From the NCBI GenBank assembly GCA_001871765.1, contig MNVN01000018.1:1-35472 (forward strand): a DNA stretch of 35,472 bases, written 5' to 3'. The translations under genes and the position numbers were made by a program. The stretch comes from Candidatus Nomurabacteria bacterium CG1_02_43_90 (GTDB lineage Bacteria > Patescibacteriota > Minisyncoccia > Phycocordibacterales > UBA1550). The notes beneath the pieces are model-generated. The model saw nothing but the letters and a program-made list of their open reading frames with translations, did no database searches and had not been told where the DNA came from. Every line of letters starts with the position of its first letter. The stretch's first letter is position 1. Positions 16,848 to 30,796 of the stretch are shown piece by piece.

Positions 16848-18116
16848 CTAAAATTTCAAAAGTTTTTTAAAAGAATTACCCTCTTTCGTTGGACCAATAA
16901 GTGCCAGATTACAATTTTTATCTACAAAAATAATACGCGCTATTTTTTGTATATCTTCCGCCGTTACTGCTCGAATTTGCCACTCACGCTCTTGAGGTGT
17001 TACAATTTCACGACGAAAGATCTCCTGCATGCCATAGTACTCAGCAAGGTCTTCAGACGACTCGAGTCCGAGATACATCATACCGACGAGGTGTTCCTTC
17101 ACTTTTGCAAGTTCTTCTTTTGAGACGAGCTCTTCTTTCATACCTTTGAATTCTGTCATGACAGCCTGCAATACTTCTTCAAGGCGATCGTTGGCAACAC
17201 CTGCTGAAACTGAGAAGTAGCCACTATCAGTCGAAGTACTGTTCCCCGCACGGACATAATACCCGACCCCCATTTCGTCACGCAATTTTCTAAAAAGACG
17301 CGAAGACATACCACTTCCCAATATCCCCCCAAGGACTGCGACTATCGGATTTCTCTCGTCATACAGAGGGAATGAACGCACGCCAAGAATAAAATGGGTT
17401 TGATCAGTCTCCTTGAACTGTGTAGCAATTTGTGGAGATACTTGTTTTGTCGTTGTTCTTTTTTTACCTTTCTTTTTACTTTCGGAAACCCCTTTAAACT
17501 TTTTTGTGATTTCCTTGAAAGCCTCTCTCTCGTCGATATTCCCCGACACGATGACCGTAGTCGCAGAAGCTACATAATGAGCCTTGCGGTACGCGATAAA
17601 ATCTTTGCGATTCATTCCTCGTACAATGTCCCGCGGACCCGCAATCGCCCACCCTGCAGGTTGGTCGCCATACAAAAGACTCATCCACACCTCATGGACT
17701 TTTTGCATCGGCATATCGTCGTACATATTGATCTCATCCACGATAACTCCTTTTTCTTTTTCAATTTCAGATTCTTTGAGGAGGGGGTTGAGGTAGAGAT
17801 CGGAAATGATATCAATAAGTTTTAGGAAATCTGAGGCCTTCCCTTTTGCGTAAAAACCCGTGAATTCCTGTCCGGTAAACGCGTTGAATTCACAACCAAG
17901 CGTATCGAGCTCTTTTGACAAATCACTAGTGTTGGGGCGGTTGATTGTACCCTTGAAACACATATGTTCAAGAAAATGAGAGACTCCATTCTTTGCCTTT
18001 CTCTCATATTTTGAGCCAGCCTCCACCAGCACCAATACGGTTACTGTAGGATTGTCCGCCATAGGAATCGTAATCATACGCAAACCGTTGGGTAATGTTT
18101 TTTTCTTGAATTTCAT
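16848..18116 (-). CDS. M16 family zinc peptidase
   Basis: NGVSHFLEHMCFKGTINRP (HxxEH), IVDEINMYDDMP, ILGSGMSSRLFRKLRDEMGVGYYV. Confidence 0.95.
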   Translation of the reverse strand: MKFKKKTLPNGLRMITIPMADNPTVTVLVLVEAGSKYERKAKNGVSHFLEHMCFKGTINRPNTSDLSKELDTLGCEFNAFTGQEFTGFYAKGKASDFLKLIDIISDLYLNPLLKESEIEKEKGVIVDEINMYDDMPMQKVHEVWMSLLYGDQPAGWAIAGPRDIVRGMNRKDFIAYRKAHYVASATTVIVSGNIDEREAFKEITKKFKGVSESKKKGKKRTTTKQVSPQIATQFKETDQTHFILGVRSFPLYDERNPIVAVLGGILGSGMSSRLFRKLRDEMGVGYYVRAGNSTSTDSGYFSVSAGVANDRLEEVLQAVMTEFKGMKEELVSKEELAKVKEHLVGMMYLGLESSEDLAEYYGMQEIFRREIVTPQEREWQIRAVTAEDIQKIARIIFVDKNCNLALIGPTKEGNSFKKLLKF

Positions 18117-18150
18117 AAAGGTAGTCTAGCATAAACTATACCCAACAAAC

Positions 18151-18200
18151 AAAAAGCCCCTCAATTCTTTATGGAAATATCCATGAAGAATTGAGGGGCA
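18151..18200 (-). terminator. Terminator upstream of the M16 gene (ends the preceding unit)
   Basis: GCCCCTCAATTCTTTATGGA aa TATCCATGAAGAATTGAGGGGC with minus-strand T-tract. Confidence 0.75.
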
Positions 18201-18320
18201 ATACCATCCTCACTGAGGATGGTGGGGGGGGCGCGTAACCGGAAAGAAAGGACTTTTCTTTGTATGAGAAGAACCGCAGAATAAATAAAGAAAAGCACGG
18301 GGTTCCGGGCTTTTTGTGAT

Positions 18321-18629
18321 TTACGAGATGAGAGCTGATTCATCTTTCAAGCGACGACTACCTTTAACCGCAAGTGCGAACATCACCGCAAAAAACAACT
18401 CGAGAAAAGACCACGCCATGTCCCCGATTAAGAAGTCCCAACAGGAAATACTAATGGAAAACAGAAAAAGTACTGAGAGCAACAACGTTATCTTCTTTTT
18501 TACAAATTCTGCCACACACGTTGTTACTTTCGGATAGTACGCAGAGAGTAACTCATACGCTACCACAAAAACCAAAAAAATAAGCACTACCACGAATAAT
18601 TCCTGGTAATACTGGACAATTAGCAACAT
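18321..18629 (-). CDS. Small hypothetical membrane protein (about 3 TM)
   Basis: Hydrophobic segments, e.g. LFVVVLIFLVFVVAYELL and ITLLLSVLFLFSISISCW; flanked by a terminator-like hairpin near 18290-18317. Confidence 0.55.
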   Translation of the reverse strand: MLLIVQYYQELFVVVLIFLVFVVAYELLSAYYPKVTTCVAEFVKKKITLLLSVLFLFSISISCWDFLIGDMAWSFLELFFAVMFALAVKGSRRLKDESALIS

Positions 18630-18678
18630 ACGCCCTCTCTTTACATGGTAAACGCTACAAAAACAAAACTAAAACTGA

Positions 18679-20094
18679 CTATAAAATAACGCTCCTTATA
18701 TAGTTTGTCAACTCACTAATTGACATACGCTGTTGCTCCCCTGTATCGCGATCGCGAATAGTGACCGTGTCTTTGAGTGCAGGAGTCTCGCCTAATGTAT
18801 CAAAATCGATAGTTACGCAGAACGGTGTGCCAATTTCGTCTTGGCGACGATAGCGCTTGCCGACATTGCCATTGTCGTCAAACTCACACATAAAGTCTTT
18901 GCGGAGCAAAGCAAAAACCTCGCGCGCTTTTGCCACGAGTTCTGGTTTGTTTTTCAAAAGTGGAAAGACGGCGCATTTGATAGGTGCGAGTTTTGGAGGA
19001 AATTTCAAAAATACTCGCGTATTATCCCCTTCGCCGACTTCGGTATAAGCGTTATCGAGGAACATCAAGAAAAGTCTCCCGAGACCAACTGAGGTTTCCA
19101 TAATATGCGGAACGAATCGTATCTTCGTCTCTTCGTCAAAATAATCGAGAGATACACCAGAGAACTTTGCATGCTGAGTTAAATCCCAATCCCCACGCGC
19201 ATGAATACCCTCAACCTCTTTGAACGATCCTCCAAAAAAAGCGTATGCATACTCAATGTCATACGCATCGCTCGCATAGTGCGCAAGTTTTTCGTGTTTA
19301 TACCAGCGAATCTTTTCCGCGGGAATACCCAAGGAAAGGAACCACTGCCAACGAACCTCTTTCCACATTTCGTACAGCTCTTTCGTTTGCGTAGGGTTAT
19401 GAAAATACTGCATCTCCATTTGTTCAAACTCACGCGTTCTAAAGATATATTGGCGAGCGGCGATTTCGTTACGAAAAGCCTTTCCTACTTGCGCAATACC
19501 GAACGGCAATTTTGGGTGAAGTGAATCAAGCGTGTTTTTATATTCCAGATAAATACCCCCACAGGTTTCGGGGCGGAGGTACATGACGTTCTCCTCCGTT
19601 AAACTATCTACCGGCGAGCCGAGGTTTGACGTTACCATCATGGAAAAAGACTTTGCGGGAGTAATGTCCGCGGAGCCACATTTTGCGCAGACAAGCTTTT
19701 TCTCCGCGCGCAATTTGTCGAGCTCTGTATTCAAAAAATCAAGGGGCATTTTATCTGCAGGAATACCAAAACCTTCGAGGATATGGTCCGCACGATAGCG
19801 TGATTTGCAATTGCGACAGTCTACCTGCGGGTCGTTGAATCCACCCACATGCCCCGAGGCAACCCATGTTTGTGGATGCATGAAGATAGCACTATCGAGG
19901 CCATATACATCATCACGAAGTTGCACCATACTCTTCCACCACTCACTCTTGATATTCTCTTTGAGGAGAACGCCGTAGTGCCCATAGTCGTATACACCAG
20001 CAAGCCCTCCGTAAATCTCAGAGGATGGGTACACGAAACCACGCCGTTTTGCGAGCGAAGTGATTTTTTCCATTACTTCAGTTAAGGGGTTCAT
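18679..20094 (-). CDS. glyS: Glycyl-tRNA synthetase (dimeric class II type)
   Basis: LAKRRGFVYPSSEIYGGLAGVYDYGHYGVLLKENIK, LRPETCGGIYLEYKN, GKAFRNEIAARQYIFRTREFEQMEMQYF, ETSVGLGRLFL. Confidence 0.96.
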   Translation of the reverse strand: MNPLTEVMEKITSLAKRRGFVYPSSEIYGGLAGVYDYGHYGVLLKENIKSEWWKSMVQLRDDVYGLDSAIFMHPQTWVASGHVGGFNDPQVDCRNCKSRYRADHILEGFGIPADKMPLDFLNTELDKLRAEKKLVCAKCGSADITPAKSFSMMVTSNLGSPVDSLTEENVMYLRPETCGGIYLEYKNTLDSLHPKLPFGIAQVGKAFRNEIAARQYIFRTREFEQMEMQYFHNPTQTKELYEMWKEVRWQWFLSLGIPAEKIRWYKHEKLAHYASDAYDIEYAYAFFGGSFKEVEGIHARGDWDLTQHAKFSGVSLDYFDEETKIRFVPHIMETSVGLGRLFLMFLDNAYTEVGEGDNTRVFLKFPPKLAPIKCAVFPLLKNKPELVAKAREVFALLRKDFMCEFDDNGNVGKRYRRQDEIGTPFCVTIDFDTLGETPALKDTVTIRDRDTGEQQRMSISELTNYIRSVIL

Positions 20095-20123
20095 AGAGGT
20101 GACGAGTGGTCTTTGTTACTAGC

Positions 20124-22034
20124 TCAATTTACCACAGTTACTTGGTTTTGACCAACTTGAGGGTCTGAAGAGAGGTAAGTCGTTAAAGGAGGTTTTTGGT
20201 CGCGTAATTCCGTCTTCGTAAAATCATCGGTACCCAGAAGAACAACGTCTCCCGTAAGTTTTGGTGCCTGTCCTACCTGACTGAGACTTGGCAAGAAAGA
20301 GATTTGGAAGGAAACATCACGTGTGCCCCCTGCCGGGATGCGCCCCGCATTCCACGTCACTTCGGAGTTCACGTCAGTGTAGATTACCCCTTCACCTTCA
20401 GGAGAGATTTTGTTCAACCACTTTACGTAAATTGGTAAGGTGGTTTTAACAACAGCATTTGAAACACTATTCGAAGAATTGTGTACCGTGAAGGAAACAG
20501 TGTAGGTTGTTTCCTTGTCTACCTTGGGAGGTAGTGCTCCCGTGTTTTTAAAAGGACCAGAAAAATATGTCGCGCGCGCGCCAAGACGAAGGTCCGTATC
20601 AAACTTCACCGTACGCGAAGCAAAGGTGGTGATGTCTTCTGAGCTCCCTGAAGTAGACGTGCGCTGTGCATGAGCCTGAACATCAAAGATTACCTGTGGA
20701 TTTTTTATGATTGAGGTCGTGTTCGCATCAAGTGCCCGCGGAGAAAAACTGAAACCAACGGACCCTCTTGCTCCTGGTTCGACAAGGCGGAGCTCTGGAT
20801 TTCCTCGTTTGTCCCAAACGATAGTATCGTCAATGGATCGATAAAACCCGCCGATTGAAGCGTACACTGAATAGCGATTAAGTACTTCACCATTGAGTTT
20901 TGCTTCAATTACGACGTTGCTAAGTGGTGCGGGATTGTTATTTTGCCAAGAAATAACTGCTTGCACCGTTTCCCCGAGTCCCATAACATACTCAGGAGAA
21001 TGCTCGTTGTTGACCGTGAGGTCGAGCCCGAGAAAAGGCTTAGTTATTACCGTTGACTCACTAACAGAATCATAGATAATTCCAATCAATCTTTCATCTC
21101 TTGTACTCTGTGTCCCTACAGAAATTTTTGTAATTTTTTCTTCGTTTTCTTGGCCTTCGAGGATACCATGGATTTTAATAATGCGCGTTTCCTCAGGAGC
21201 AAGGTTCGCTATCTGCCAACTATTCGTATTGTATGTTGGCGAAGGATCAGCACTTTTGAAGCTGAATCCCACGGGATATTCTGCGGTAACAATGAGGGCT
21301 CCCGTGGGGTCTTTTGTATTAGAACTGACGCTTAGGTCAAACTCAGCTTCCTGTCCTGAATTTGCTTCTTTGCGAGCTCCGAGAATTATATTGACCGGGG
21401 ATGAGGATACTTTGATGGCGTAGGTTTTTGATTTCTTTAATGTTGCATTTGACCCCGCCATACGGTACTCCAAAGTTACGGTCACTTCTTTGCTTGTGTT
21501 TTCTTGTCCGTATAGAAGCGCGGGTACTTTTTCTGTGATGACCTGTCCTGGGAGAATTGCGCCTACATCTTGTGAGTTCCGCAAAAGTTCCGATTTATCA
21601 GTTGAGGAATAGAAACCAGAAGGATATTCAACGAGAAGTGTTGCTGAGTCAACGGAAACCTTATTTCCATTGGTTATCACAAAATTCGTATCAAAGGGCT
21701 CCCCTCCAGCAATAGCAAGGGGGGCAGAAATATCAATGTTAATATTTGTACCAGAAACAACATTAAGTCCTTTCCACCAAACAAAACTTGTAACGAGTGC
21801 AGCGATAAAGAAAAAACCTGCTGAGAATAGTGTAATTTTTTTCATCATACGATGTCGTTTTTCTTTACGTGCCTCTGCTTCTTCGAGAGAGAGGGCGTCT
21901 GTTTTTGCATCCCACGATTCCCCTACGGAGATTTCTTTATGCGTAAGCACGTTTTCTTCAGTGAGGGGCTTGAAATCTTTTGAATACAGCTCCTTCTCGA
22001 GCTCCTCAATTCTACTTTTTACATCATCTGCCAT
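20124..22034 (-). CDS. Hypothetical single-TM protein with large extracellular beta-sandwich/CARDB- or DUF11-like repeats
   Basis: Cytoplasmic N-terminus, TM ITLFSAGFFFIAALVTSFVWW, repeated Ig-like segments. Confidence 0.7.
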   Translation of the reverse strand: MADDVKSRIEELEKELYSKDFKPLTEENVLTHKEISVGESWDAKTDALSLEEAEARKEKRHRMMKKITLFSAGFFFIAALVTSFVWWKGLNVVSGTNINIDISAPLAIAGGEPFDTNFVITNGNKVSVDSATLLVEYPSGFYSSTDKSELLRNSQDVGAILPGQVITEKVPALLYGQENTSKEVTVTLEYRMAGSNATLKKSKTYAIKVSSSPVNIILGARKEANSGQEAEFDLSVSSNTKDPTGALIVTAEYPVGFSFKSADPSPTYNTNSWQIANLAPEETRIIKIHGILEGQENEEKITKISVGTQSTRDERLIGIIYDSVSESTVITKPFLGLDLTVNNEHSPEYVMGLGETVQAVISWQNNNPAPLSNVVIEAKLNGEVLNRYSVYASIGGFYRSIDDTIVWDKRGNPELRLVEPGARGSVGFSFSPRALDANTTSIIKNPQVIFDVQAHAQRTSTSGSSEDITTFASRTVKFDTDLRLGARATYFSGPFKNTGALPPKVDKETTYTVSFTVHNSSNSVSNAVVKTTLPIYVKWLNKISPEGEGVIYTDVNSEVTWNAGRIPAGGTRDVSFQISFLPSLSQVGQAPKLTGDVVLLGTDDFTKTELRDQKPPLTTYLSSDPQVGQNQVTVVN

Positions 22035-22087
22035 GCTTTCTAGTATACCACTACGGAGTTAGAAAGTTAAAAGTTTTTGGGGAATGA

Positions 22088-22675
22088 TTAGAGATGTGAT
22101 GCGCTGAGTGCTTCGTTAATAAGGGGAAGTACTTTTGAGCGCAACGGTTCGAAACCTTCAAGGATCTCCTTCGTCCAGACTCCCGACTCAAGAAAAATAT
22201 CGTAACCTGTTGCATCAAGGTATCCCAAATGCGCCAACACGCGCATCGCAACCAGCGTCTCAAAAGAAAGCACGAGTTCGAGGGGTAGTGGTTGCTCCTC
22301 CAAAAAACTGACTGCACCAACGAGATCATTAAATACTTCATCTTCCCTCCCCTCGCCCTGCAAAAGTCGCACGAGAAGTGTGCAGTACCGCGCAAAAAGT
22401 TTGAGCGAGGTACTATTATTTTTTATATGCAAAAGCGGGCGCCACTCCCCCGCGCTCGTAATTCGCCACACTTCCTTCCCACGCACAAGGTCAAGGTGGA
22501 CAAAAGAAAAATCTTGGAGAACATAGCGGAGTTTTGACTTTTCCTCGCGTACTGATTGAGCAGAGGCGCTTACGAGCCCGAGCTCTTCGGTAAAAATTTT
22601 ATAAAAACGGTTTGACTCACCAATCGCTACACTCCCCAGAATAACCCCGCGTGTATGATACACCTGATATGCCAT
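22088..22675 (-). CDS. recO: DNA repair protein RecO
   Basis: MAYQVYHTRGVILGSVAIGESNRFYKIFTEELGLVSASAQSVREEKSKLRYVLQDF; RecO N-terminal OB-like pattern. Confidence 0.85.
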   Translation of the reverse strand: MAYQVYHTRGVILGSVAIGESNRFYKIFTEELGLVSASAQSVREEKSKLRYVLQDFSFVHLDLVRGKEVWRITSAGEWRPLLHIKNNSTSLKLFARYCTLLVRLLQGEGREDEVFNDLVGAVSFLEEQPLPLELVLSFETLVAMRVLAHLGYLDATGYDIFLESGVWTKEILEGFEPLRSKVLPLINEALSASHL

Positions 22676-22677
22676 AG

Positions 22678-25600
22678 TTATTTCTCGAGCGTGCACACAA
22701 AAGAAAGGTCGTCAACGGTAATCGACTTACCTTCCATCTCCCCAAAAATAATTTCACTAATAAGTGCAGTTTTTTTGATTTCTGACGCAAACTTTTCTAC
22801 GAGTGCTTGCCCGTCCGCATCTGTCTGAATACGCAAAACAACCACATCTGCAGGGGTAAGTGCCATCTTCTTGCGAAGTTCCTGTACACTTCGCAAGAAA
22901 TCACGGAACTGTCCTTCTTGTTTGAGCGCAGGGATGATTATCGTATCCAAAAGTACTTCCTCCTCACTTGCAGAATTAAACGATAATTCCTTAATATTTA
23001 TTTCGTCAAGAATAATAGACCGATATCCCTCGTCATCTTTTAAGAGTGCGTTTTTTACCGTAATGAGCGCAAGCGGTTGACGAACCTTGATACCGACTTT
23101 CGCGCGAACCTCAAGAGCGAGCGAAACGATGCGTCGCGCCTCTTCCATCTTTGCAAGGAGACTCTGATCTTCCTGTGCCTTGAGATTTTCTGGCCATGAT
23201 TCGAGGTGCACACTTTCCTTCTCGCCACCGACTCTCCCATAGATATGCTCCGCCAAAAACGGCATCACCGGTGCAAGCACTTTTGAAAATTCAAGAAGTA
23301 TAGTGCGGGTAGTTGCAAGCGCTTGTGCTCGGTCGAGAACATCGTCTGCCTTGAAGCGCTCACGGGAACGGCGCAAGTACCACGTGGAAAGGTCATCGAC
23401 AAAAAGATTGAGAGGCTTCATTGCGCGGTCAAGCTCGTAAGTATCAAACGATGCCGTTGTCTCCCTTACCACTTCGGCAAGTCGCGTGAGAATCCACTGA
23501 TCAAGAATATTTTGCGATCCCCCCTCTGTTTGTTGTACACCCTTCTCTGCATACAATTCATAGAAAGAGAGCACATTCGTAAGGCGCATGATAAATTTTT
23601 TAACGACCTCATCAACGCCCTTCTCTGAAAATGCCATGTCCTCGGCATGAACGATAGGAGCAGACAACAAATAGTAGCGTATCGCGTCAGCGCCATACGT
23701 GTTGAGGAGCATCCAGGGGTCAGGGTAATTCCTAAGCTTCTTCGACATCTTCTGTCCATCTTCGGCGAGAATTTGCCCATTCACGACCACTTGCTGAAAT
23801 GGCGCCTTATTAAAAAGTCCGACGGACAAAACGAGCATATTATAAAACCAGCCACGGGTCTGGTCGACCCCTTCACCAATAAAGTTTGCAGGAAAATTCT
23901 TTTCAAAAAGTTCGGCATTTTCAAATGGATAATGAAATTGCGCATAGGGCATCGAGCCCGATTCAAACCAACAATCAAAAACGTATGGCACGCGCTTCAT
24001 ATCACTACCACATGAGCAACCTACCGGGACTTTATCAATATAGGGACGATGAAAATCAAATTCAAAATCTGCGTTATGAGGAAAGAGAACAAAAGGAAGG
24101 TCACGAGCTGTTCCCGTCTCAACAAAATCGTCCGGCCCTTCTTTGAGCAACGTTGCCTCGTCCTTATTCATTCCCCGTGTTCCCGCTTCCAGCATCCATA
24201 CGCCATATTCATGGGTAATAATCAAAATCGTTTTACCCAGATATTTCGATTCTAATTCTTCAAGAAGGTTCATGACCCGATACTTCATTTCCATGAGTGT
24301 CTCTCCACCTTCGGGGCAACGATCAAACTTTTCACGAATCGTGGTAAATGTCTTGTGATATTCTTGCCCACTTTTCCCATCAAGAACGCCAAAGCCAATC
24401 TCGCGCAAACGATTATCGAGGATAATCGCCTCTTCTTTTATACCAATCGTTTCAGCAACAATTTTTGCGGTATCGTGGGTACGCTTGAGCGGTGAAGCAA
24501 CAATGAGGTCGATATTTTTCCCTTTGAGTGTTTCCGCAGTCTTGTGTACCATCTTGGTCCCCTCTTCGGTAAGTCCAAGCTTCCCCCCGCATCCTTCGAT
24601 ACTTGCGCACAGAATATTTTGCACATTGCTCTCTGCTTGCCCATGACGCATCACGATATAGGTATTGCCTGACTTCTTCGTATGCTCGGCAAGTTCGGCG
24701 CGACTGCCCAAAACTTTTTCGGTAGTGCACGTCTCGCATTTCCATACGGGAAGTGGTGCACCCCAGAAACGAGAACGCGAGATAGCCCAATCGCGCGCGC
24801 CCTCGAGCCATTTTCCAAAACGCCCGTCACGCATATTTTTTGGTACCCAATTTGTCTCTGCATTTTGGGCGAGGAGCTTTTCCTTGAGTGCGGAAACTTT
24901 TACAAACCATGACTCCGCTGCATAGTTCAAAAGCGGTGTATCGCATCGCCAACAATGTGGATATGCGTGCACCATTTTTTCTTTTGCAAAAAGCGCGCCC
25001 ATGCCGGCAAGGTGTTTAATAATTAAAATGTCGGTGGACTGGTGTCCATCCTTTTCTTTTGCCTTTGGTTTTACTGATACCCCCGCAAAATCACGTACTT
25101 CGTTTTTCATTACCCCATCCATTCCCACGTGTTGCACAAAGGGCAGATTTTCTTTTTTCCCGAGAGCCATATCATCCTCGCCAAAAGCAGGAGCAATATG
25201 CACAACTCCGGTACCACTCTCCATGGTCACAAAATCGGCACCATAAATCTTCCAGCCATTTTCTTTGTACGGAAGATTTGCTTGAGCGGAATAATAATCA
25301 AAAATCGGAGTGTATGACTTCCCTATCAAGTCCGTCCCGCGGATTGTTTCAATAACAACATATTCTTTATCTTTAAATACTGTTTCTAAGCGCGCAGAAG
25401 CAAGGATATAGTGAACTTCCCCTGAAGAAATTTTTACATACTCCTCAACAGGGTTCACTGCAAGCGCAACATTGCCCGGCAATGTCCACGGCGTCGTCGT
25501 CCATACGAGCACAAAGGTGTTTGGCTCGCCCACGAGTGCAAACTTAGCGGTGACCGAAATATCGGTAATGTCTTTGTATCCATCGGCAACTTCATTACTC

Positions 25601-26178
25601 GAAAGAGTCGTCTCACAGCGAGGACAAATGTGCATCGACTTGAACCCTTGGTAGATGAGCCCTTGATCAAAAAGATTTTTGAAAGCCCACCAAATGGATT
25701 CCGTGTAGTTGGCATCCATCGTGCGGTACGAATGCTCCATATCAATGAAGCGCCCAATACGGGGGATTATTTTTTTCCATTCGGTATCATAGCGTACCAC
25801 CGAAGCACGCGCTGCTTCGTTAAACTTTTCAAGGCCATACGCCTCGATGTCTTTTTTGTGCCCCAGGCCAAGCTCCTGCTCAATCAAGTTTTCTACGGGG
25901 AGACCATGACAGTCCCAGCCCCATACACGACGCACGTAGCGACCACGCATGGTCTGATAGCGTGGTATAACATCTTTGATTACCGAGGTAAGAATATGTC
26001 CATAGTGAGGCAACCCTGTCGCAAAAGGAGGCCCGTCATAAAATGAAAAGGGTTTTCCGTCTTTCGTCTGCTCGAGTGTTTTCTCAAAAATATGCAGGGT
26101 CTCCCAGCGCGCAAGAGTTTCCTCTTCGCGACGTGCTATTTCAGAAAGTTTATTTGGTTCTTTTTCCTCTTCGTTCAT
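22678..26178 (-). CDS. ileS: Isoleucyl-tRNA synthetase with embedded histidine-phosphatase domain
   Basis: PPFATGLPHYGHI, VWTTTPWTLPGNVALAVNP, WFVKVSALKEKL, KMSKKLRNYPDP; insertion with RHGQAESN, SPLKRTHDTA and ITHE. Confidence 0.95.
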   Translation of the reverse strand: MNEEEKEPNKLSEIARREEETLARWETLHIFEKTLEQTKDGKPFSFYDGPPFATGLPHYGHILTSVIKDVIPRYQTMRGRYVRRVWGWDCHGLPVENLIEQELGLGHKKDIEAYGLEKFNEAARASVVRYDTEWKKIIPRIGRFIDMEHSYRTMDANYTESIWWAFKNLFDQGLIYQGFKSMHICPRCETTLSSNEVADGYKDITDISVTAKFALVGEPNTFVLVWTTTPWTLPGNVALAVNPVEEYVKISSGEVHYILASARLETVFKDKEYVVIETIRGTDLIGKSYTPIFDYYSAQANLPYKENGWKIYGADFVTMESGTGVVHIAPAFGEDDMALGKKENLPFVQHVGMDGVMKNEVRDFAGVSVKPKAKEKDGHQSTDILIIKHLAGMGALFAKEKMVHAYPHCWRCDTPLLNYAAESWFVKVSALKEKLLAQNAETNWVPKNMRDGRFGKWLEGARDWAISRSRFWGAPLPVWKCETCTTEKVLGSRAELAEHTKKSGNTYIVMRHGQAESNVQNILCASIEGCGGKLGLTEEGTKMVHKTAETLKGKNIDLIVASPLKRTHDTAKIVAETIGIKEEAIILDNRLREIGFGVLDGKSGQEYHKTFTTIREKFDRCPEGGETLMEMKYRVMNLLEELESKYLGKTILIITHEYGVWMLEAGTRGMNKDEATLLKEGPDDFVETGTARDLPFVLFPHNADFEFDFHRPYIDKVPVGCSCGSDMKRVPYVFDCWFESGSMPYAQFHYPFENAELFEKNFPANFIGEGVDQTRGWFYNMLVLSVGLFNKAPFQQVVVNGQILAEDGQKMSKKLRNYPDPWMLLNTYGADAIRYYLLSAPIVHAEDMAFSEKGVDEVVKKFIMRLTNVLSFYELYAEKGVQQTEGGSQNILDQWILTRLAEVVRETTASFDTYELDRAMKPLNLFVDDLSTWYLRRSRERFKADDVLDRAQALATTRTILLEFSKVLAPVMPFLAEHIYGRVGGEKESVHLESWPENLKAQEDQSLLAKMEEARRIVSLALEVRAKVGIKVRQPLALITVKNALLKDDEGYRSIILDEINIKELSFNSASEEEVLLDTIIIPALKQEGQFRDFLRSVQELRKKMALTPADVVVLRIQTDADGQALVEKFASEIKKTALISEIIFGEMEGKSITVDDLSFVCTLEK
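24076..24666 (-). other. Histidine phosphatase (phosphoglycerate-mutase-like) domain inserted within IleRS
   Basis: NTYIVMRHGQAESN ... GLTEEGTKM ... LIVASPLKRTHDTAKIVAE ... LREIGFGVLDGKSG ... PEGGETL ... ILIITHEYGVWML, between GSRAELAEH and FHRPYIDKVPVGC. Confidence 0.9.
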
Positions 26179-26241
26179 ATTTCTCAACAATACCACAAAA
26201 ACAACCATCCAACAAAAACCCCTTGTGAGACAACGGAATTT

Positions 26242-27993
26242 TTACATTCTCTCGGGGGATGAAATACCCAAAACCCATAAACCTTCTTTTAAGACAGTTT
26301 TCGCTCGTCTCGTAATCGCAAGATGATGTTCCGTTTTTTCCTTGTCATCGGTAATGATTTGCGTGTTCGCATAAAAACCATTAAAGAGTTGTGTAACCTC
26401 AAAAAGATATGTTACCAATTTTTGCGGAGCAATATTTTCGATTGCATCAGTAAGTAAAACCTCAAAATAGGCGAGTTCTCTTTCAAGATTTGTAGCAGGA
26501 ATATTTTTAAATACCGGTTCATATCCTTTCTCTTTCCCCTTTTCAAGAAGTGAAGCACATCGTGCATGTGTATACAAAAGATACGGACCAGAATCCCCCT
26601 CAAAAGAAAGTGACATCTCTGGGTCAAAATTAATACTCATACCTGGCTTCGAACGCAAGACTGCGATACGAAGAGCCGAAAGTGCGATTTCTCGTTCAAG
26701 TTTCTTTTTCTCTTCCGCACTCAAGTGAGCAATCTTCTCCCCTGCTCGCTCACGCACCTCTTCTTCGACCACACCGATAACGTCAAGTGCAAGCGGAATA
26801 CCGCCAAGACGGCTCGACATCTTTTGTCCTTTAAAAAGCATGCGACCGTGAGGGACATGTGTACTCTTTTTTACATAGTCAATCCATTCATCTCCTAGTT
26901 TATTTGCGGCATCAAACACTACTTTAAAATGAGGAACTTGCTCAACATCAGTGATCGAAAAAGACATATCTGGGAAAAAATTTTTTATGCCAACGGTTGC
27001 GAGTCTTTCAAATTTAATCTTAAGTAATCCGAGGTCTTTTGCTTCATAGGTTGGATACCCCTGGCTATTAACAAATACTGCTGTATTAATATCCTTTCTT
27101 TCCTCACTGGGTGTATACACAATAGCACCTTCACTTTCTTTAAAAACCTTTCCTTCTCCGGTATTTTCTTGAACGATTTTTTTGCCTTCATCCCCTGCCC
27201 AGCCTTCATACACAAACGCATCGATTTCTGAACCTATCTCGCTGAGTATTTTCTTAAAATAAGACTCGTTCACTTTTTTAGTTGCCACCACAAGATCATA
27301 AAAGGTATCGTCTACAAGGTGGTACATCTTATCGAGAACTTTTTTTGCACCTTGAAGGCTTTCTTCGTTTTTCTCACACTCTTTGACCCCGCGCACATAT
27401 GCATCACCTAAATACTTTATAACGTCATTTTCTTTGTTATTTTGAAAATAAGTAAGGTCTATCTCCCCCGCCTTCATATCTTTCTCTAAGATAAAAAGTG
27501 CTTTGGCGATACCCAAAGAGACATCCGAAGGGAATGACATACTTTTTACTTTTCCTCCACTTATCTTTGCGCCACGAACAATAAATTCTCCAATAAAATT
27601 ATTCATCAGGTGCCCGATAGAAAATGGCTTAAAAAGATTTGGGGATGAGTGCTCAACAAGAATATTTTTGCCAGCATAACAAGTAATGAGTGAGCTCTTT
27701 TCTTTTGCGTTCTCGTTTCTTATTGCATCATCCGAAAGTTTGAAGTTTATAAACCCCGGTCCTGCAATCGTAATGTCCTTAATCTCCTCAATCTCCTGTT
27801 CACGGATTTTTTCTACCATTTTTTCCGCAAGCTCACGAGGAGAGAGCCCAGCCTCCTTTGCACAGGCAAGCGCCACATTCGTCGAATAATCTCCGTGGGT
27901 AATATCCGCAGGGCGTTCTATCACAACGCCATTTACCTCAATGCTGAGAGCGCGAAGAGCTTCTCGAACGATTATTTCTAGTTTCTCCTTCAT
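26242..27993 (-). CDS. argS: Arginyl-tRNA synthetase
   Basis: THGDYSTNVALACAK, NILVEHSSPNLFKPFSIGHLMNNFIGE, GRMLFKGQKMSSRLGG, C-terminal anticodon-binding domain. Confidence 0.96.
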   Translation of the reverse strand: MKEKLEIIVREALRALSIEVNGVVIERPADITHGDYSTNVALACAKEAGLSPRELAEKMVEKIREQEIEEIKDITIAGPGFINFKLSDDAIRNENAKEKSSLITCYAGKNILVEHSSPNLFKPFSIGHLMNNFIGEFIVRGAKISGGKVKSMSFPSDVSLGIAKALFILEKDMKAGEIDLTYFQNNKENDVIKYLGDAYVRGVKECEKNEESLQGAKKVLDKMYHLVDDTFYDLVVATKKVNESYFKKILSEIGSEIDAFVYEGWAGDEGKKIVQENTGEGKVFKESEGAIVYTPSEERKDINTAVFVNSQGYPTYEAKDLGLLKIKFERLATVGIKNFFPDMSFSITDVEQVPHFKVVFDAANKLGDEWIDYVKKSTHVPHGRMLFKGQKMSSRLGGIPLALDVIGVVEEEVRERAGEKIAHLSAEEKKKLEREIALSALRIAVLRSKPGMSINFDPEMSLSFEGDSGPYLLYTHARCASLLEKGKEKGYEPVFKNIPATNLERELAYFEVLLTDAIENIAPQKLVTYLFEVTQLFNGFYANTQIITDDKEKTEHHLAITRRAKTVLKEGLWVLGISSPERM

Positions 27994-28046
27994 ATAAACA
28001 TGAGCATATCACGGAGGACACAAAACAAAAAATGTTCCCTTAATTT

Positions 28047-28068
28047 TTTACCATATACGTATGGTAAA
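28047..28068. promoter_or_regulatory. Operator-like palindrome upstream of argS
   Basis: TTTACCATA TACG TATGGTAAA, 9-bp perfect arms, with a related half site TATACGTCTATGGTTAAA shortly after. Confidence 0.45.
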
Positions 28069-28154
28069 CTATAGTATCATATACGTCTATGGTTAAAATG
28101 TATGACAGTACCCGTCCCCCCCCACACGGGGAACCGAGGAGTGCCGTCTCGTCT

Positions 28155-29333
28155 TTAGTTTTTTGTCCGCAGAGCGTCGTCTATCTCTCGAGCTATTTTT
28201 ATAAAATCTTTTTCCTTTTTGCCACGCGTGGTTTCTGCGGCAGTGCCAAGTCGGATACCCGAAGGGTCAGTAGGTGGGCACGTGTCAAACGGGATAGCAT
28301 TTTTGTTTACAATGATACCCACTTTTTCAAGTCGATCACTTGCTTCCCCTCCCCCCATACCTTTGCCATCCATCGACACATCTACCAAGAAGAGGTGGCT
28401 ATCCGTGCCCCCCGAAATAATTCTCCAGCCAAGTTTTGAAAGCTCACCAGCAAGCGCTTGTGCATTCTTCACTACCTGTTTTGCATATTTTTTAAAATCA
28501 CCTATCGATGCTTCTTTGAGTGCCACAACAACTCCTGCTATCTGGTTTATGTGGGGGCCACCTTGAAGCCCCGGAAAGACCGCCTTGTCTATTTTCTTGC
28601 CCAGCTCACGTACATCCTTTTTTGCAAAAATGAGGGCTCCACGGGGACCACGGAGCGTCTTATGGGTGGTTGTGGTTACAATATCTGCATACGGAAACGG
28701 TGAAGGATACACACCTCCTGCCACAAGCCCTGCCGTGTGTGACATATCCACCACAAGGTATGCACCGACGCTATCCGCAATCTCCCGAAACTTTTTCCAA
28801 TCAACAATACGTGCGTATGCCGTGAACCCTGCGATAATCATTTTTGGTTTTTCTCGCTTTGCAATTTTCGCAAGTTCTTCGTAATCAAGTTGCTCCGTTT
28901 CTTTCGAGAGCCCGTACGGCACTTGCATCCAAAATTTCCCCGTCGCGGATGCCTTGTGTCCGTGCGTTAAGTGTCCCCCTTGATCAAGCGACATGCCCAT
29001 CACTTTGCTCCCCAAAGGCAAGAGCGCTGTATAGACTGCCAAGTTTGCCGGCGACCCCGAGAGCGCTTGCACATTGACGTGCCATTCTTCTTTTTTAAGT
29101 TTAAATAATTTCAATGCGCGTGCAATGCAGAGGTTTTCTATTTTATCCACCACGGTATTCCCGCCATAGTAGCGCTTGCCTGCGTACCCCTCGGCATACT
29201 TATTAGTAAACTCTGAACCAAGTGCCATGAGCACATCTTTTGAAACATAGTTCTCCGACGCAATAAGGTTAATCACTTTTTTTTGTCGCGCCTTTTCTGC
29301 TTGAATAAGTTTTTCGATTTGTGTGTCGTTCAT
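28155..29333 (-). CDS. glyA: Serine hydroxymethyltransferase
   Basis: NLIASENYVSKDVLMALGSEFTNKYAEGYAGKRYYGG, DMSHTAGLVAGGVYPSPFPYADIVTTTTHKTLRGPRGALIF. Confidence 0.98.
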   Translation of the reverse strand: MNDTQIEKLIQAEKARQKKVINLIASENYVSKDVLMALGSEFTNKYAEGYAGKRYYGGNTVVDKIENLCIARALKLFKLKKEEWHVNVQALSGSPANLAVYTALLPLGSKVMGMSLDQGGHLTHGHKASATGKFWMQVPYGLSKETEQLDYEELAKIAKREKPKMIIAGFTAYARIVDWKKFREIADSVGAYLVVDMSHTAGLVAGGVYPSPFPYADIVTTTTHKTLRGPRGALIFAKKDVRELGKKIDKAVFPGLQGGPHINQIAGVVVALKEASIGDFKKYAKQVVKNAQALAGELSKLGWRIISGGTDSHLFLVDVSMDGKGMGGGEASDRLEKVGIIVNKNAIPFDTCPPTDPSGIRLGTAAETTRGKKEKDFIKIAREIDDALRTKN

Positions 29334-29347
29334 TTTTAAAAAAATGA

Positions 29348-29770
29348 TTACTTCCCTGTACTTCCAAAACCACCTTCCCCGCGTGTGGCATCTGAGAGAT
29401 TTTCCACTTCCACTATCTCTGCGTGCTCCACTTTTTGAATAAGCATTTGCGCAACTTTGTGCCCTACAACAATCGTATAGTCCTCATTGCTCAAATTTAT
29501 CATTCCCGCTTTTATTTCCCCCCGATATCCTGCGTCGATTACCCCACCGAGATTTTTCAATCCGTGCTTTATCGAAAGTCCGCTTTTGTCCCATATAAGA
29601 CCGACATACCCGTCAGGAATCTCTATCGCTATCCCCGTACCGATAAGTACCCGTGCGCCTACGGATATAGTCACTGTCTCCGTCGCGAACAAATCAAACC
29701 CCGCATCGCCATGGTGTGCATAGGTGGGGATTTTTGCATCGGGGTGAACTTTTTTTATGTTGAGTTGCAT
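29348..29770 (-). CDS. dut: dUTP diphosphatase
   Basis: AHHGDAGFDLFA, IWDKSGLSIKHGLKNLGGVIDAGYRGEI, VGHKVAQMLI, TRGEGGFGSTGK. Confidence 0.96.
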   Translation of the reverse strand: MQLNIKKVHPDAKIPTYAHHGDAGFDLFATETVTISVGARVLIGTGIAIEIPDGYVGLIWDKSGLSIKHGLKNLGGVIDAGYRGEIKAGMINLSNEDYTIVVGHKVAQMLIQKVEHAEIVEVENLSDATRGEGGFGSTGK

Positions 29771-29777
29771 AACAGAC

Positions 29778-29783
29778 ATTATA
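29778..29783 (-). promoter_or_regulatory. Putative -10 box for dut, 7 nt from its ATG
   Basis: Minus strand: TATAAT gtctgtt ATGCAACTC. Confidence 0.45.
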
Positions 29784-29796
29784 TCACAACAAAATA

Positions 29797-29824
29797 TTGA
29801 CAAATGTATACTTTCTGATATAAC
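29797..29824 (+). promoter_or_regulatory. Promoter of thyA
   Basis: TTGACA - 16 nt (aatgtatactttctga) - TATAAC, with TG extended -10. Confidence 0.65.
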
Positions 29825-29881
29825 TCAGTCAGTAACTGAAGTTCATTATCAATCACAAACATCAACCAAATGGAGGCACTC

Positions 29882-30796
29882 ATGGCCAATCCACCTGTTG
29901 CAAACTATCTCCCCCTCGAACAGAGGGTTCCTGATTTTCAAATAAGGAACTTGCTTGAACACATCATGAAGGAAGGCCGTATCGTCCACCCCATACAAGG
30001 TGGCGAAGCACGGATGATTGTAGGTGCGCAATGCCACTTCAAAATGGCAAATGGAGCTCCTGTCATAAACTTACGTGATATTTCTGGATCCATGTTCTAC
30101 GGAGCAATCGCCGAGCATATCAGCTTCCTTAATGGCGCACAGACACTTGAGGAACTCGTTTCGTACGGCATGAACCCTCATTGGTGGGACCGCTGGGTAA
30201 CAAAGAAAAAATGTGCAGACTTCGGGCTTCCTGAGGGAAACCTTGGGACAGCTTCATACGGCGCTGTTTGGACAAGGTTCCCTACAAGGGACGGTGGTTT
30301 TTTTAACCAAATCACCGCAGTCATCGAGCAAATCAGGCGTGCACCACATTTGCGTACTCACAAAATCACCCCCTGGTTCCCTCCTGAAATTATCGGGCCA
30401 CCAGGGACACGGAAAGTGGTTGTTGCTCCTTGCCACGGAGAAGTGCACATCATCGTTGACCCCGAAACCAAGGAACTCATTGTGCATCATGTGCAAAGAA
30501 GTGGCGATCTCGCTGTTGGTGTGAAGTTTAATATCGTCCAGTACACATCACTCGGAATGATGTTGGCACAAATACTCGGATACACTTTTTCGGAGCTCGT
30601 GTATACATTTTCTGATGTGCACATCTATGAGGTGCAGTATCCGTTTGTTGAAGAACTCATCTCGCGTGAACCTTTCCCTTTCGGCAGAATCACTCTGCAA
30701 GAAGGGATAATGGATATTCATGATTTCCTGCCAGAGCACTTCACACTGTCGGAGTATCAAGCACATCCAAGGATGAACATTCCTACACCTGTTTGA
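29882..30796 (+). CDS. thyA: Thymidylate synthase (ThyA family), divergent
   Basis: APCH active-site Cys, QRSGDLAVGVKFNIVQY, FSDVHIYEVQYPFVEELISREPFPF, DFLPEHFTLSEYQAHPRMN; SD GGAGG before ATG 29882. Confidence 0.85.
   Translation: MANPPVANYLPLEQRVPDFQIRNLLEHIMKEGRIVHPIQGGEARMIVGAQCHFKMANGAPVINLRDISGSMFYGAIAEHISFLNGAQTLEELVSYGMNPHWWDRWVTKKKCADFGLPEGNLGTASYGAVWTRFPTRDGGFFNQITAVIEQIRRAPHLRTHKITPWFPPEIIGPPGTRKVVVAPCHGEVHIIVDPETKELIVHHVQRSGDLAVGVKFNIVQYTSLGMMLAQILGYTFSELVYTFSDVHIYEVQYPFVEELISREPFPFGRITLQEGIMDIHDFLPEHFTLSEYQAHPRMNIPTPV

Follow-up and report, generated by a model that had tools for sequence, protein, structure and literature searches.

A histidine phosphatase domain carried within, or coupled to, isoleucyl-tRNA synthetase in Patescibacteria

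Introduction

Why would an isoleucyl-tRNA synthetase (IleRS) carry a second enzyme inside its own chain? The question is raised by the ileS gene in the window analysed here, the whole 35,472-nucleotide contig MNVN01000018.1 of Candidatus Nomurabacteria bacterium CG1_02_43_90. Few enzymes of translation have been studied as thoroughly as IleRS. An earlier note, made from the sequence alone, described a histidine phosphatase domain within this IleRS and suggested that databases may already hold the fusion architecture unremarked. A full-text literature search found no published description of an IleRS-phosphatase fusion. Here we describe the domain, its conservation and its distribution in Patescibacteria (CPR), and weigh the roles that it might have.

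Results

The ileS gene reads without interruption through 1166 codons, from an ATG at 26178 to a stop at 22678-22680 on the minus strand, in agreement with the frame given in the earlier note (Table 1). An alternative in-frame ATG at 26208 would give an IleRS of 1176 residues. The score against the IleRS equivalog model TIGR00392 was well above its cut-off of 621 bits, and the match consisted of two stretches with the insert between them. The signatures expected of an IleRS were located, namely PHYGH, the editing-domain motifs TTTPWTLPGN and GTGVVHIAPAFGEDD, and KMSKK (KMSKS in the earlier note). By equivalog model and motifs, the window protein thus appears to be an isoleucyl-tRNA synthetase. 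The genome assembly has 682 kb in 22 contigs with a completeness of 98.8%; it belongs to the class Paceibacteria, and its nearest named relatives are Candidatus Yonathbacteria. Within positions 16851-30793 of the window, ileS stands with argS, a class II aminoacyl-tRNA synthetase (aaRS) gene (tRNA-synt_2b and HGTP anticodon domain), recO, SHMT, dUTPase and thymidylate synthase.

Table 1. Features of the ileS locus in the window. Residues are those of the 1166-residue IleRS.
Feature	Position	Strand	Residues	Remarks
ileS with phosphatase domain inside	22678..26178	-		1166 aa + stop; TIGR00392 853 bits, open frame
PHYGH, class I aaRS signature	25996..26010	-	57
KMSKK, class I aaRS signature	23737..23751	-	810
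Zinc knuckle, first Cys pair	24727..24741	-	C481, C484	immediately before insert
Insert including linkers	24061..24675	-	502-706 (205 aa)	missing from relatives' insert-free IleRS
PF00300 core	24172..24657	-	508-669	Pfam, AlphaFold model, Foldseek
RHGQ	24637..24648	-	511	Arg511 and nucleophile His512; invariant in 138 IleRS copies
SPLKRTHDTA	24466..24495	-	562	second phosphate-binding Arg566; invariant
LREIGFG	24388..24408	-	591	acid Glu593; Glu in 136/138, Asp in 2/138
ITHEYG	24202..24219	-	654	second catalytic His656; invariant
Zinc knuckle, second Cys pair	24007..24018	-	C721, C723	immediately after insert
argS, upstream neighbour	26242..27993	-		same strand as ileS; DALR_1, Arg_tRNA_synt_N, tRNA-synt_1d
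recO-like gene, downstream	22088..22696	-		RecO_N; longest frame overlaps the end of ileS

Across the whole synthetase, the best match in sequence and fold was to type 2 IleRS (IleRS2 of Priestia megaterium, 8c8u, and the yeast enzyme, 8wnd), which shares the HYGH, editing and KMSK motifs with the window IleRS but has no domain where the latter has its insert. Residues 7-500 align to 3-478 of 8c8u and residues 701-1100 to 480-878, leaving approximately 200 residues without a counterpart. The insert-free IleRS of relatives aligns to 7-501 and 706-1161, near-seamlessly across the site. Pfam assigned the intervening region to PF00300 (E 3.5e-31; 109 bits against a gathering cut-off of 21.7), and the Pfam scan found no other family in it. 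This is the family predicted in the earlier note, whose four phosphatase motifs were found in place and whose interval, 24076-24666, was correct to a few codons. We read the two Cys pairs that flank the insert as the halves of a zinc knuckle that it splits; among relatives the two pairs are largely retained or lost jointly. The PF00300 match and the lack of a counterpart in 8c8u rule out an ordinary IleRS subdomain. A misassembly or frameshift is likewise excluded, because many assemblies, obtained independently, have the same insert at the identical point; the one-contig genome G017 is one of them.

An AlphaFold2 model of the insert, built on an alignment of 29 inserts, had a pLDDT of 94.5 and a pTM of 0.92. 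Foldseek matched it in the PDB to 4ij6, 6s2q, 4pz9 and 1h2e at E ~1e-12, all of which are histidine phosphatases, and the top matches were the phosphoserine phosphatase PspA, the mycobacterial GpgP and PhoE. In the model of the full-length protein (pLDDT 84, pTM 0.73) the insert was predicted as a well-folded unit, and the closest structures were again of type 2 IleRS, from mupirocin-resistant Priestia and from eukaryotes. The insert is therefore predicted to have the branch-1 histidine phosphatase fold. In fold and catalytic residues it resembles PspA of Hydrogenobacter (4ij5), GpgP Rv2419c (4pz9), PhoE (1h2e) and CobC; these enzymes are free-standing, whereas the window domain sits in, and its kin sit in or are coupled to, IleRS. 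None of the NCBIfam equivalogs, which are curated models of characterised phosphatases, accepted the insert at its cut-off. The best match was the archaeal dPGM model NF038349 (83-85 bits against 225), and the scores were also below cut-off for the dPGM model TIGR01258 (26 against 81.7), the alpha-ribazole phosphatase CobC model TIGR03162 (73 against 162.9) and the PspA model NF045917 (56 against 350).

Arg511, His512, Arg566 and His656, together with Glu or Asp at 593, were present in all 138 IleRS-borne copies aligned to the profile, a few of which are one locus cut differently, so that independent sequences are slightly fewer than 138. The catalytic columns are among the most conserved, although the domains are overall only about 26-54% identical to that of the window. 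Eleven of the 12 copies borne by valyl-tRNA synthetase (ValRS) also have intact catalytic residues. Since the active-site residues are kept while the rest of the domain diverges, catalysis appears to be under selection, as the earlier note had argued from the motifs of a single protein; such conservation is evidence for activity, not proof of it.

The domain was matched in 57 of 61 genomes (the window genome and 60 relatives), in frames mostly of 1100-1270 aa. With a profile of these domains, wider draws gave matches in 324/387 genomes of the class and 278/381 of the phylum, counts that take in free-standing phosphatases too. For a clean count we used 104 Paceibacteria genomes of at least 95% completeness. 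By our count the domain occurs within a frame of at least 700 aa in 73/104; a close free-standing gene was found in 9/104, and the remainder had none, distant ones only, or a fragment at the edge of a contig. Wherever an aaRS-sized frame with the domain was checked, it proved to be IleRS or ValRS. Across 199 genomes from a different phylum, that of L097 (Lachnoanaerobaculum), no aaRS-sized phosphatase fusion was seen, and among the matches listed there the related phosphatases are free-standing, in frames of about 190-275 aa and one of 413. Two same-genus assemblies (G008 and G009) have no IleRS match at all, so their apparent lack of the insert is not evidence of loss. The only fusion to a non-aaRS partner was seen in two CPR proteins (L187 and L188), in which a VTT membrane domain is joined to a C-terminal histidine phosphatase.

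The earlier note had treated the case as a single fusion, and this part of it does not hold: the domain is widespread in CPR, enters at several sites, is sometimes a separate overlapping gene and is sometimes accompanied by other inserted enzymes. With the insert-free IleRS of L067 as a ruler, most IleRS inserts lie at residue ~497 and others at ~515, ~548 and ~668. One IleRS has two phosphatase domains (L063) and another three (L085), and in L195, L198 and L199 two lie near each other. The ValRS of several lineages carries the domain, in L112 and L113 at roughly the same loop (ValRS positions are approximate), and the Ile/Val assignment is supported in several proteins by the Pfam ValRS C-terminal arm. 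A single origin of all ValRS inserts was not rejected by the AU test (p-AU 0.225); the tree by itself is therefore no ground for claiming that ValRS captured the domain several times independently.

Other enzymes were observed in the same synthetases. A NUDIX domain lies in the editing region of two IleRS (L202, identical to L066, residues 347-462; L275, residues 18-136), once with and once without the phosphatase. The IleRS of L196 has a GNAT acetyltransferase at residues 666-764, near the site of the second phosphatase of L085, and scored below the cut-off of the IleRS-GNAT model NF040702. The ValRS of L213 carries three inserted enzymes, a serine hydrolase, a phosphatase and a HAD hydrolase, and that of L210 a serine-hydrolase domain plus a phosphatase. 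At residues ~250-432 of L201, an editing-region insert of ~180 aa looks serine-hydrolase-like by eye (HSLG) and is below every Pfam cut-off.

Ten of the genomes surveyed (L175-L181, L183, L185 and L186), some of which are outside the 104 and belong to the larger draws, have an insert-free ileS that is immediately preceded, on its own strand, by a close phosphatase gene. Stop and start overlap as ATGA in L175, L183 and L185 and as ATGCTAA in L177; the other coupled genes end a few to ~15 nt before ileS. Several of the encoded proteins terminate in a GELRKL-like sequence, similar to that with which the inserted domain ends. In the domain tree the coupled genes nest inside the insert clade, grouped with the inserts L161, L162 and L168 (SH-aLRT 95). 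L205 has an insert plus an upstream copy ~300 nt away, and the latter groups with the insert L172 (96). Within the IleRS-linked lineage, free phosphatases mostly adjoin ileS, whereas the more distant CPR phosphatases do not; in L182 the close gene is located away from ileS. The tie of the phosphatase to IleRS proposed in the earlier note is supported, and both the coupled genes and the occurrence of the domain in ValRS strengthen it.

In a tree of 212 IleRS cores from which the phosphatase had been removed, the linked or unlinked state changed 28 times, a number that the use of FastTree and gene transfer may inflate; 21 of the changes are forced by well-supported branches. Certain changes are unambiguous at close range: L263 (without the insert) and L147 (with it), which belong to one family, form a sister pair at 100%, and the insert-free L256 falls within a clade of insert carriers. 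The trait has been gained or lost often, which indicates that linkage to the phosphatase is not essential everywhere.

Discussion

We propose that the insert functions as a branch-1 histidine phosphatase of the PhoE/CobC/PspA-like kind, carried at the zinc knuckle of IleRS. His512 would accept the phosphate, Arg511, Arg566 and His656 would hold it, and Glu593 would give the proton. Whether joined in one polypeptide or translated from neighbouring genes, with the phosphatase frame adjoining or overlapping the ileS start, phosphatase and synthetase would be co-located and present in similar amounts. The phosphatase might then remove, on the spot, a small phosphomonoester made by, or inhibiting, charging with Ile or Val, as a form of housecleaning or protection; this role, like the substrate class itself, is a guess. 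That an active phosphatase is kept at the synthetase to clear such a compound of Ile/Val charging is the reading we favour, at about an even chance of being right. Branch-1 histidine phosphatases cleave phosphomonoesters, and Ile-AMP, a mixed anhydride, and PPi, both named, with AMP and (p)ppGpp, as possible substrates in the earlier note, are therefore unlikely. AMP is not favoured either, because its removal would seem a waste in cells that are likely to salvage nucleotides.

The NUDIX, GNAT, HAD and serine hydrolase inserts suggest that such domains may clean up around the synthetase or protect it. A broader and more tentative possibility is that the IleRS and ValRS of CPR are platforms for housecleaning enzymes in cis, the phosphatase foremost among them, and that together they form an undescribed layer of quality control or self-protection, acting on a phosphorylated small molecule and separate from CP1 editing.

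Other synthetases with an added enzyme offer a comparison. The IleRS described by NF040702 (ileS_w_GNAT), like the window IleRS, bears an extra enzyme domain, there GNAT and here the phosphatase; the window protein scored 307 against a cut-off of 1999, and Pfam found no GNAT domain in it. The methionyl-tRNA synthetase of Mycoplasma penetrans has an N-terminal aminotransferase that was shown to be active, supplies methionine and was reported to be unique to that species (PMC7694997). It is likewise an aaRS with an added catalytic domain, in an organism that is a reduced parasite, but that fusion is terminal and found in one species, whereas the phosphatase of CPR IleRS is internal and widespread in the phylum.

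The alternative that survives best, although we consider it rather improbable, is that the phosphatase is active in an unrelated job such as sugar or nucleotide salvage, was joined to IleRS because insertions are tolerated in the zinc-knuckle loop, and persists in its own right. Compact genomes can yield fusion and overlap without shared function. A genome-wide Pfam match found no PF00300 protein in the window genome besides the IleRS insert, so a general job is possible, and several genomes with additional stand-alone phosphatases still retain the insert, which argues against it. The close gene away from ileS in at least one genome (L182) and the capture of other enzymes by CPR IleRS and ValRS would also fit an unrelated job; the tendency of free phosphatases to adjoin ileS only in the IleRS-linked lineage, and the restriction of all aaRS-sized hosts checked to IleRS and ValRS, would not.

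HipA-like kinases phosphorylate some aaRSs, and some histidine phosphatases act on phosphoproteins. The domain could thus undo phosphorylation of the synthetase or of a partner, for example by such kinases, and being fused to its target would make it efficient. Among solved structures, the nearest are those of small-molecule enzymes (phosphoserine phosphatase, glucosyl-3-phosphoglycerate phosphatase and PhoE), and we regard a protein phosphatase as improbable. A phosphoglycerate mutase filling a missing glycolytic step is most unlikely: an archaeal dPGM model is the best NCBIfam match and most relatives are without iPGM, but that match is far below its cut-off, the window genome has iPGM, and the 57 of 61 genomes with phosphatase matches include those with and those without an iPGM found. 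We give equally little credence to a structural or allosteric spacer without catalysis, which could brace the enzyme or bind tRNA at the split zinc knuckle but would be expected to lose the active-site residues that are invariant here amid divergence.

If the favoured reading is right, with the phosphatase kept active for the synthetase, IleRS would be bifunctional in a large part of a bacterial group that ranks among the largest, as its sequences suggest. Three features, an active site that is conserved, a phosphatase that alternates between insert and coupled gene, and hosts limited to IleRS and ValRS, lead to a testable claim, that a phosphate ester matters in branched-chain aminoacyl-tRNA charging. 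Patescibacteria are believed to rely on hosts for their amino acids. Identification of the substrate would uncover a new step of quality control or protection, or a new regulatory link, in such bacteria. The pattern as a whole suggests a phosphate-removing step, so far undescribed, that is linked to protein synthesis.
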